Positions 23,363-26,364 of a DNA stretch of 51,595 nucleotides are shown here, piece by piece; the stretch's first letter is position 1; each line of letters starts with the position of its first letter. A model generated the notes under the pieces. It searched no databases and had not been told where the DNA came from. It saw only the letters and a list, made by a program, of their open reading frames with translations. The translations under genes and the position numbers were made by a program. The stretch comes from Gammaproteobacteria bacterium (GTDB lineage Bacteria > Pseudomonadota > Gammaproteobacteria > JAKDMP01): positions 1 through 51,595 of the forward strand of contig JALUYA010000025.1 of NCBI GenBank assembly GCA_027018875.1, written 5' to 3'.

Positions 23363-23809
23363 ATGTTCCGGAAACTAGGATTTATCGGGCTGCTGGGCGG
23401 CCTTGGACTGCTGTCCGGCTGTGCCCCCAAATCCGTCTCTCCCCCGCTGCAGAATCCGGCACCGGCCGCCACCGGGGCCGGTATGATTGTTCCGAATCCC
23501 AAGATCTCGTCCCGTATTGTGGCCATGTCGCGGCGGGTGCGCGCCACCCCCGGTGGCAGCGCGCGGGCCGGGCTGTCAACATTTTTCGTCCACGTCAATG
23601 CCGCTGGACAGATCCAGGTATACATCCGCGTCAAGGCGCTTGCGCCCGCACTACAGGCCCGGCTGCGCACGGCGGGGGCCAGCGGCATACGCCCCTCCGT
23701 GGCACTTGGCCTGTACCAGGCCTGGGCTACACCGGAGGCGATTCAACGCATCGCCGCTCTGCCCGAAGTCACCCGTATCACCCCGCCCGTTTATGGCATA
23801 ACCAAATAA
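23363..23809 (+). CDS. Lipoprotein resembling the propeptide of the adjacent protease
   Basis: A 148-residue predicted lipoprotein. The signal peptide ends in a lipobox LLSGC with C20 as the lipidation site, and residue 22 Pro/23 Lys do not suggest inner-membrane retention. Residues 73-147 align with residues 58-126 of the protease encoded next: AAGQIQVYI against AAGAVQVYI, GASGIR in both, QAW in both, then IAALPEVTRI against LAARPGVGRV and a final P-x-Y-x-I. The protein therefore looks like a free-standing protease prodomain without a catalytic domain. By analogy to subtilisin propeptides it could be an inhibitor or folding helper. I do not recognise a named family. An upstream ATG at 23333 would add ten residues. 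The protease ATG is 26 bp downstream. Confidence 0.75.
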   Translation: MFRKLGFIGLLGGLGLLSGCAPKSVSPPLQNPAPAATGAGMIVPNPKISSRIVAMSRRVRATPGGSARAGLSTFFVHVNAAGQIQVYIRVKALAPALQARLRTAGASGIRPSVALGLYQAWATPEAIQRIAALPEVTRITPPVYGITK

Positions 23810-23835
23810 CCCAGGTATTTTCAGGAGTCTCACCC

Positions 23836-26364
23836 ATGTACCGCATCGTCCGTCTTCTTGCCGCCCTCACGGCACTCACCCTCGCCGCCCCGGTATTCGC
23901 CGGATCGCTTTCACCGCAACTCGAAGCCCTGCTGCACCGGCCCGGGCTGGTTACCCTGGCACGGGCCCGGGCGAGCGCCGGAATCGTGCCGCAATCGCCG
24001 TTCACCCCCCGCATCGATGCCGCGGGGGCGGTGCAGGTATATATCCACTACCGGGGCCTGCCGCCAAGCCTTGCCGGATTGGGTGCCAGCGGAATCCGGA
24101 TCAGCCCACCTCTTGAAGTGGTGCAAGCCTGGGTCCCGATCGCCCAGCTGCAGGCCCTCGCCGCCCGCCCCGGAGTGGGCCGGGTGAGTATTCCAACCTA
24201 CGCCATCGTGCGCGGCGGATACACCCCCGCTCCGGTCCCCATGAGCGTGCCGAAAGGACTTTCCATCGACTCCCAGGCAATCACCGCCGAGCGCGTCAAG
24301 CCCTTGCATAATGCCGGTATCACAGGCTCGGCGAGCGTCAAGCTCGGAGTGATCTCCGACGGCATCGACGGCATCACCGAATCCCAGGGTGCGGGCTACC
24401 TGCCCCCCGGCGCGGTGGGTCCCAGCGGCGTGATCTACGCTCCCAGCGGCATGACCGGCTCCGGCGCGGAGGGGACCGCAATGCTCGAGGAGGTTCACGC
24501 CATGGCGCCCAAGACCACGCTGGGCTTTTGCGGGCCGGCTACCACCGTAGAGTTCCTTACCTGCTACACCGACTTCGTCAACTGGGGTGCATCGATTATC
24601 GTCGATGATCTCGGCTTCCCCGGCGCTTACATCTACAGTAATGCCTATACCACGAATTTCCTTAATGGCATTAGTAACTTCGCCAAGGCCCACCCGAATA
24701 TCAACCTGGTGACCGCGGCGGGCAACGACGCCCAGGATTATTTCCAGGGTTCATATCTCGCCGACACCAGCCCCAATATCATCAGCTTGCACCCGACCTA
24801 CACCGTACCCCCCACCACCGGCGGAACACCCGGGAGAAGCTATGGTTCGGCGATGGACTTCGGCCAAGCAGGGGGGGGCAAGAGCGATGCGCTCGAGCCG
24901 GTCACCATTGGCGCGGGTTGCTCCGGTGGCGGCTGCCAGTTGCTCGCCATTCTCACCTGGAACGATCCCGAAAGCGGCCCCTACGATGACCTGGATCTGT
25001 TCCTGGTGAAAAAGGACGGTACCGTGGTCACCTCGAGTACCTTCGATCAACAGAGTAACCCCAGCTATGCTCCCAACTCCGCCAGCTGGAATGCCCCCGG
25101 CGAGGTCCTGGCCTACACCAACAAGACCGGCAGCTCCCAGACGCTCTATCTCGGGGTGCTCTGCTATGCCTGCCCCGACGTGAACAACGCCAACTTCCGC
25201 TTCAAGCTCTATGGCAATCTCAACGGCGCCGGCAGCTTCCAATACCTCACCAGCGGTTCGATCGCTGGGCACGCGGGTCTGGCGGCGGAACTGAGCGCGG
25301 GGGCGGCACGCTCGACCGGCATCGGCGGCAACATCATGGCCCGGATGGAGCTATTCAGCGATACCGGTCCGTTCCTCTGGGGCGACTGGCAATCCGGTCT
25401 CACCAATACGCCAAAGCCTGATATCACCGGCATCGACGGCGTCACCGTGAGCGGTGCCGGCGGGTTTTCCTCTCTCTTTTCCGGCACTTCTGCGGCGGCA
25501 CCGAACATCGCCGCCGTGCTCGCCTTGCTGCGTGGCCAATGGCCGATCGGGGCGGCCAGCGCGAGCGGCTGGAATCAGATCGTGGCCACGACGGCCGATC
25601 CGGCGGCGCTGAGCAACTGCAGCAATGCGTCTCAGTGTGGGACAGGCCTGGTGAATGCCCAAGCCGCGGCGGCCAAGCTCGACGGCGGACCGACGGCAAG
25701 CATCACCTCACCCACCGCCCCCTCGGGTAAACCCGCGGCAATAAAACCCAAGCAGCCAATCACCTTCCAAGGGCAATGTAACTATACCGGCGGTTTCGGC
25801 CCCTTGAATTACCAGTGGAACTTCGGCTCCGGCGCTACCATCCCCCCCCCGCAAACCGTATCCAGCCCCACCCCGGTAACCTATACCACGGGCGGGATCT
25901 ACACGGTACGGTTCACCTGTTCCAGTCGGCTCGCTCCCGCCACCGCCAGCCTGGAGATTGCCGTGCAAGCCGCGGCATCGGCGAGCAATCTCAGCCTCTC
26001 TACCCCGGAAGGCCAGTCCGTATCGGGGCAATTTAGCGGCAGCGGCATCGGCGGAGAACAGGTAAGCTACGTGGCGCTCAGCCAGCCCACACATGGAACC
26101 TTAACCGTGAATACGACGAGCGGTACCTTTATCTACACGCCGAACACGGGCTTCAGCGGCACCGACAGTTTCACCTACCAGATTGATAACGGCGTCGAAC
26201 TCTCGAACCCGGCGACCGTATCGATTGCGGTCAATGCCACGGCACCGCCCCCGCCCTCCGGCGGTAGTGGCGGTGGCGGTGGCGGCGCGCTGGGCGGCCT
26301 TTCACTGGCCGGGTTGGCCCTGCTTGCCGGGTTGGGATTCGCCTTGCGCCGGCGCCGGGATTGA
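23836..26364 (+). CDS. Secreted S8-fold (subtilase) protease with Glu for His and GlyGly-CTERM tail
   Basis: The 842-residue precursor has a signal peptide (cleavage near A22) and a propeptide-like region (about 40-130). The subtilase domain (about 160-615) has D175 (VISDG), oxyanion N297 (AAGND) and nucleophile S552 (GTSAAAP). At the canonical HGT position it reads AEGTAMLEEVHAMAP, so E212 replaces the catalytic His. This resembles a subtilase branch with DEG at this site and recalls the Ser-Glu-Asp triad of sedolisins. A PKD-like domain (about 618-710), a cadherin-like/VCBS-type domain (about 718-800) and a tail with poly-Gly (809-817), a helix (818-837) and RRRRD follow. That tail fits GlyGly-CTERM proteins processed by rhombosortase for cell-surface or secreted release. 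AGGAG precedes the ATG. Confidence 0.88.
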   Translation: MYRIVRLLAALTALTLAAPVFAGSLSPQLEALLHRPGLVTLARARASAGIVPQSPFTPRIDAAGAVQVYIHYRGLPPSLAGLGASGIRISPPLEVVQAWVPIAQLQALAARPGVGRVSIPTYAIVRGGYTPAPVPMSVPKGLSIDSQAITAERVKPLHNAGITGSASVKLGVISDGIDGITESQGAGYLPPGAVGPSGVIYAPSGMTGSGAEGTAMLEEVHAMAPKTTLGFCGPATTVEFLTCYTDFVNWGASIIVDDLGFPGAYIYSNAYTTNFLNGISNFAKAHPNINLVTAAGNDAQDYFQGSYLADTSPNIISLHPTYTVPPTTGGTPGRSYGSAMDFGQAGGGKSDALEPVTIGAGCSGGGCQLLAILTWNDPESGPYDDLDLFLVKKDGTVVTSSTFDQQSNPSYAPNSASWNAPGEVLAYTNKTGSSQTLYLGVLCYACPDVNNANFRFKLYGNLNGAGSFQYLTSGSIAGHAGLAAELSAGAARSTGIGGNIMARMELFSDTGPFLWGDWQSGLTNTPKPDITGIDGVTVSGAGGFSSLFSGTSAAAPNIAAVLALLRGQWPIGAASASGWNQIVATTADPAALSNCSNASQCGTGLVNAQAAAAKLDGGPTASITSPTAPSGKPAAIKPKQPITFQGQCNYTGGFGPLNYQWNFGSGATIPPPQTVSSPTPVTYTTGGIYTVRFTCSSRLAPATASLEIAVQAAASASNLSLSTPEGQSVSGQFSGSGIGGEQVSYVALSQPTHGTLTVNTTSGTFIYTPNTGFSGTDSFTYQIDNGVELSNPATVSIAVNATAPPPPSGGSGGGGGGALGGLSLAGLALLAGLGFALRRRRD

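Follow-up and report, generated by a model that had tools for sequence, protein, structure and literature searches.

In the window, a 51,595-nucleotide stretch of gammaproteobacterial DNA, we found a lipoprotein gene whose product is homologous, in its C-terminal domain, to the prodomain of the subtilase-like protease encoded by the next gene (Table 1). Adjacent pairs of a free-standing prodomain gene and a protease gene were found at 11 loci in three families, f1, f119, and f155. The lipoprotein is probably a propeptide that acts in trans from an envelope anchor, inhibiting or chaperoning the downstream protease before its export.

Table 1 Features of the lipoprotein-protease gene pair in the window
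Feature	Position	Strand	Basis
Lipoprotein with free-standing prodomain, 148 aa	23363..23809	+	ORF; homologous to the prodomain of the next gene; beside a protease in relatives too
Type II signal peptide with lipobox LLSG-Cys20, followed by Ala (and not Asp) at +2	23363..23422	+	Sequence inspection
Propeptide-like domain (residues 72-148; last residue, Lys148)	23576..23806	+	BLASTP, AF2, Foldseek, BPN' column
26-bp intergenic stretch between lipoprotein and protease genes (same strand, two-gene unit)	23810..23835	.	
Glu-type subtilase-like protease, 842 aa	23836..26364	+	ORF; catalytic region related to S8
Cis prodomain, residues 54-126	23995..24213	+	BLASTP, prodomain profile
Catalytic region with internal beta-rich insert	24283..25698	+	Motif and profile comparison
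Glu212, aligned by motif with the catalytic His of subtilisin; invariant in 23/23 relatives	24469..24471	+	Motif only
Ser552, catalytic serine of G-T-S-A-A-A-P; invariant in 23/23	25489..25491	+	Motif and profile
PKD and bacterial Ig/cadherin-like tail domains	25708..26226	+	Pfam
GlyGly-CTERM sorting tail (Gly-rich, hydrophobic stretch, RRRR)	26254..26361	+	Inspection

The lipoprotein and its similarity to the protease prodomain

The initial annotation had pointed to motifs shared between the lipoprotein and the propeptide region of the protease 26 bp away, and this observation was confirmed over a somewhat wider segment. By BLASTP, residues 72-148 of the lipoprotein aligned with residues 54-126 of the protease with 32/77 identical positions (42%), 4 gap columns, 50.8 bits, and an E value of 3e-12. 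The motifs AAG-x-x-QVYI, GASGIR, QAW, and P-x-Y-x-I occur in the same order in both proteins, and the similarity extends to the final residue of the lipoprotein. A profile built from the protease prodomains alone (23 proteins) detected the window lipoprotein at an E value of 3.7e-20 (Z = 10000), giving the profile similarity that the initial annotation had expected, and it matched 12 further free-standing proteins, each at an E value of 1.2e-6 or lower. Judged by sequence, the similarity between the lipoprotein and the protease prodomain is far above chance. The lipoprotein matched no Pfam or NCBIfam family up to E = 1 and gave no PHROGs match, and the cis prodomain was likewise without a Pfam or NCBIfam family, save for one spurious weak NCBIfam match. 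A sequence-profile search of the PDB with the prodomain alone returned a chance match only, and the full-length profile gave a weak in-order alignment to the pro region of Tk-SP (7.7 bits).

The ORF of the window lipoprotein begins with the type II signal sequence MFRKLGFIGLLGGLGLLSGC. By inspection, a lipobox was present in 12 free-standing genes, i.e., that of the window and 11 relatives, the lipoproteins of genomes G330 and G119 having an atypical one (C-A-G-C); the envelope anchoring proposed earlier recurs across the relatives. No Asp was found at position +2 after the lipobox Cys among the ten lipoproteins of f1 and f119. Because this residue is not Asp, sorting to the outer membrane would be expected from the +2 rule of E. 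coli.

An AF2 run with a five-row alignment modeled the lipoprotein domain mostly at a pLDDT above 90, with strands at residues 84-90, 107-112, 117-122, and 136-140 and helices at 95-103 and 124-131. The resulting order of elements in the model, b-a-b-b-a-b, is that of subtilisin propeptides. When the model was compared with the PDB by Foldseek, the best target-normalized TM scores among the matches listed were those of the S8 propeptides 2z58_B (Tk-subtilisin; TM 0.75, rmsd 2.4) and 1spb_P (BPN'; TM 0.72, rmsd 2.1), and pro-subtilisin E (3whi_B) was matched with a probability of 1.00 and an rmsd of 1.7 over 58 columns. Chains of CspB and the PAM protease were also among the matches listed. 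The Foldseek E values were not significant (best, 0.03) because the fold, which is ferredoxin-like, is small and common. The model and its S8 propeptide matches thus agree with the S8-prodomain-like fold anticipated in the initial annotation.

In most of the f1 and f119 lipoproteins, the C-terminus falls on or close to the position corresponding to the end of a cleaved propeptide: the ten proteins have 0, 1 (seven proteins), 4, or 7 residues beyond the equivalent of Lys148. In the cis copies, Lys or Arg is frequent in this column and is followed by a linker into the catalytic domain. A profile alignment with BPN', whose propeptide sequence was verified against 1spb and 3whi, places the Lys/Arg column at the last propeptide residue (P1), although the alignment is weak (P = 0.022 local, 0.16 global). 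Pro142 is invariant in 10/10 trans and 23/23 cis copies, Tyr144 is found in all cis and 8/10 trans copies, and the tail is a coil in the AF2 model. A conserved coil tail ending at P1 is what a propeptide that binds the substrate cleft needs. The f155 lipoproteins extend approximately 8 residues past the P1-like position, and three C-terminally anchored free-standing proteins likewise extend past it.

A subtilase-like protease with Glu at the motif of the catalytic His

The protease ORF begins with a signal peptide, followed by the cis prodomain. The initial annotation had called the product an S8-fold protease; its catalytic region is indeed related to S8, but it is not an ordinary subtilisin, its His motif being EGTAM. 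Both the motif of the catalytic Ser and the C-terminal half of the fold are present, which supports S8 membership. PF00082 matched 12/13 protease members (best E value, 4.6e-19), the window protease itself scoring 21.7 bits against a cut-off of 21.8, and the protease profile matched S8 structures in the PDB at 6.5e-16. Where S8 enzymes have HGTH, the window protease has E-G-T-A-M, and its Asp motif reads S-D in place of D-S/T, shifted by one. The standard Asp-His-Ser triad was not found by motif comparison across the 23 relatives, all of which also share Asn297, Asp257, and Asp258 (23/23). By these comparisons the protease is related to S8 but lacks the standard triad; with another residue in place of the catalytic His and a shifted Asp motif, its activity is putative. 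The profile alignment of the catalytic domain with BPN' was reliable for the C-terminal part only because of the insert, and the Glu-for-His call therefore rests on the motif. An AF2 model of the protease from a 3-sequence alignment reached a pLDDT of 35. In sedolisins (S53), a single helix carries a Glu and, four residues from it, an Asp, and the oxyanion hole contains an Asp; we rejected this family on motifs, as the residue four positions after Glu212 is Met and the oxyanion Asn of AGN is retained.

The E-G-T-A-M motif and the shifted Asp motif define a subgroup of Glu-type subtilases that includes the window protease (24469-24471) and those of loci L007-L009, L029-L036, and L064-L077. We found no description of the catalytic mechanism of this subgroup in the open literature. 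The genome of the window (G000) encodes a second Glu-type GlyGly-CTERM protease on another contig, C2 (L009, 6424-8736, minus strand), which has a prodomain of the same family and no free-standing partner nearby. Among viral contigs, one distant Glu-type protease was detected, with no partner seen beside it. It is a 1,544-aa subtilase-like protein (L077, 4680-9314, plus strand) with a C-terminal sorting domain apparently of the type IX style, and the IMG/VR contig that encodes it, labeled "viral," may be bacterial DNA rather than viral.

Rhombosortase (TIGR03902) scored above the cut-off in 7/7 genomes tested, that of the window included, and in 0/14 controls, and GspD of the type II secretion system was present in 4/4 genomes tested. 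With the tail in the protein and the enzyme in the genome, the window protease has the features of a GlyGly-CTERM/rhombosortase substrate. The partner proteases have Glu at the catalytic-His motif and GlyGly-CTERM tails.

Recurrence and evolution of the gene pair

The initial annotation had asked for the gene pair to be sought in relatives, and it proved to be conserved there. In all 11 adjacent pairs the free-standing prodomain gene lies upstream of the related protease gene, with gaps of -4 to +46 bp, and in some of them the start and stop overlap. The order to which the window belongs was sampled by two genomes, the window's own and G001 (JAKDMP010000064.1, "MAG: Gammaproteobacteria bacterium"). 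The latter has the same pair, with a gap of 46 bp, adjoining the same inorganic-pyrophosphatase-like and ABC-ATPase-like genes as in the window, and a scan of genome contigs with the lipoprotein pair found the G001 locus only.

Family f119, the sole family sampled of its order, was represented by nine genomes, with prodomain matches in 9/9 and a free-standing lipoprotein in 8/9; the free-standing prodomain protein of G374 is anchored C-terminally. The lipoprotein gene lies directly upstream of the protease gene in G234, G370, G371, G372, and G373, and in G369 the contig ends before its downstream neighbor can be read. In G330 and G119, it lies approximately 3.5 kb downstream of the protease gene, with other genes between them in G330, and a second free-standing copy, which has a C-terminal GlyGly-like sorting anchor and no lipobox, lies 13 bp upstream of a different protease gene. 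A C-terminal sorting anchor thus takes the place of the lipobox in three f119 proteins (G330, G119, and G374), and no protease was placed beside that of G374. Free-standing prodomain proteins with the C-terminal GlyGly-like anchor are encoded at L029 (6116-6811), L030 (2480-3796), and L071 (73-1044), each on the minus strand, and such proteins are possible non-enzyme substrates of rhombosortase. Between the protease and the lipoprotein of G330 (L067, 5138-9077, minus strand) lie AmgK/MurU-like cell-wall recycling genes and a gene for a small membrane protein; the protease-lipoprotein spacing in G119 (L068) is similar.

The f155 pairs came to light when the regions on either side of further Glu-type proteases of the class were inspected. 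In G265 and G155, the end of the lipoprotein gene overlaps the start of the protease gene by one base, and the G265 lipoprotein is 45% identical to the cis prodomain of the neighboring protease over 51 aa (E = 2e-8). A third f155 genome, G361, has a related protease, for which no free-standing partner was found. Proteases matching the catalytic profile occurred in 25/369 sampled genomes of the class (about 7%) and 5/398 of the phylum sample, and the prodomain family in 9/369 and 1/398, respectively; the module is rare.

The free-standing genes are under purifying selection, with dN/dS values of 0.20-0.44 between related genes. In the protease tree, three clades have a partner in all of their members, and the remaining proteases have none. 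A clade joining the window protease with the C-terminal-anchor pair of G330 and G119 had a support of 96/97, and the tree required 3 changes of the lipoprotein label. On the prodomain sequences, the AU test rejected neither a single origin of all lipoproteins (p = 0.505) nor a single origin shared by every free-standing copy (p = 0.194). The duplication of the neighboring prodomain that the initial annotation inferred may be the origin of the lipoprotein, the prodomain tree speaking neither for nor against it. Because the copy is kept while the anchor differs within the 96/97 clade, the anchoring itself appears to be selected. The selection on these genes, the way in which partner presence follows the protease clades, the tight adjacency in 11 loci with its start/stop overlaps, and the invariant Pro of the tail make it very unlikely that the prodomain copy is functionally unlinked to the neighboring protease, as a passive duplicate or a binder of another protease would be, even though such a copy would suit the distant lipoprotein genes of G330 and G119 and the partnerless protease of G361.

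A putative trans-acting propeptide

As a trans-acting propeptide, the lipoprotein would be exported by Sec and, once lipidated, retained on the periplasmic face of the outer membrane. Its pI is 11.9 and that of the protease catalytic region 4.6, and with these complementary charges the basic domain would bind the acidic catalytic domain. The tail, P-x-Y-G-I-T-K, would occupy the substrate cleft, its terminal basic residue filling the S1 site; a processed subtilisin propeptide places its tail in the same way. The protease would be kept folded and inactive in the periplasm, and type II secretion and rhombosortase sorting would then carry it to the cell surface. The presence of the cis prodomain runs counter to a trans-propeptide role, as a second copy is dispensable in principle. 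Because the protease keeps its own prodomain, temporary inhibition or safekeeping is the most likely main role, with help in folding second, and is favored over an essential foldase role.

The alternative in which the lipoprotein is a dedicated membrane-anchored steric chaperone, needed for folding in type II secretion and inhibitory as a by-product only, seems unlikely to us. Propeptides in general act as foldases, and both type II secretion and the GlyGly-CTERM tail are present. Known foldases of this kind, Lif/LipB and CpaB, resemble the lipoprotein in being membrane-anchored chaperones that are encoded by an adjacent gene and act on a type II secretion effector in the periplasm (PMC4713064). 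However, they have an N-terminal transmembrane anchor instead of a lipid, their clients are lipases and a metalloprotease, and CpaB has an SRPBCC domain. Against this alternative, the window protease retains a full cis prodomain, whereas the client ASP of the Aeromonas chaperone ORF2 is propeptide-deficient, according to the title of a reference cited in PMC5638518, and sister proteases of the same architecture in the same genomes lack a partner.

It is more doubtful still that the lipoprotein serves as a tether or docking factor gripping the mature protease at the outer membrane, as proposed for dentilisin and PrcB of Treponema denticola. In favor of a tether, anchoring is conserved across different kinds of anchor, a lipid in f1, f119, and f155 and a C-terminal GlyGly-like anchor in three proteins of f119, and PrcB, a small lipoprotein encoded upstream of a subtilase (PrcB-PrcA-PrtP), is a precedent, interacting with the dentilisin subtilase and being required for its presence (PMC8167434). 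PrcB is stated to lack homologs other than in oral Treponema, no likeness to a propeptide is reported for it, and PrtP is itself acylated. Against a tether, the window protease has its own surface-anchoring GlyGly-CTERM tail, and in Vibrio such a tail, rhombosortase, and type II secretion together put VesB on the cell surface, where the tail and rhombosortase hold it (PMC6219818).

The statement of the initial annotation that no described system has this pairing was too strong, given the precedents of SUB1-ProM, ASP-ORF2, dentilisin PrcB, and Bti. SUB1 of Plasmodium is a conventional His-type subtilase, unlike the window protease. Stand-alone propeptide-like inhibitors are known in eukaryotes, and SUB1-ProM, a stand-alone, MEROPS I9-like propeptide protein with its gene beside subtilase genes, is a potent inhibitor of its cognate subtilase (PMC6993865). 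It shares with the lipoprotein the free-standing propeptide fold and the gene position, but it is eukaryotic, secreted, and without a lipid anchor. ORF2 is a soluble protein which, like the lipoprotein, is bacterial, encoded by an adjacent gene, and ends in Lys; compared by description, it differs in that its gene lies downstream and its client has no propeptide. In A. sobria, the C-terminal Lys of ORF2 lies at the catalytic center of ASP, which it inhibits with an IC50 of 84 nM, and ORF2 is an external chaperone needed for ASP maturation, acting as a temporary inhibitor and folding factor (PMC5638518). The Bti inhibitors of Bacteroides C10 proteases and Spi of SpeB are similar in having genes transcriptionally coupled to that of the protease, and some Bti are predicted lipoproteins (PMC3462683); their targets are cysteine proteases, and Bti are staphostatin-like. 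In the open-access literature, we came across no lipid-anchored homologue of a propeptide that is paired with a subtilase. The combination of a lipid anchor, homology to the prodomain of the neighbor, and a Glu-type GlyGly-CTERM subtilase is in none of the known systems compared, a novelty that is provisional because the literature search was limited to open-access papers.

A propeptide usually works a single time, in cis, before it is destroyed. Here, a propeptide copy is now a separate membrane-anchored protein whose gene shares an operon with that of its protease in three bacterial families. If the lipoprotein binds as predicted, it would reveal how a protease bound for the cell surface can be kept inactive while still in the periplasm, would extend the membrane-anchored chaperones of type II secretion by a class based on propeptides, and would allow propeptide function in cis and in trans to be compared in a natural system. 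Because the partner proteases have Glu for His, the pairs would also be useful for studying how propeptides are matched to unusual catalytic sites. More tentatively, envelope-anchored trans propeptides might form a regulatory module that recurs with the rhombosortase-sorted Glu-type subtilases of Gammaproteobacteria, having arisen more than once and with lipid and C-terminal anchors interchanged, and would serve as periplasmic safety catches for surface proteases.
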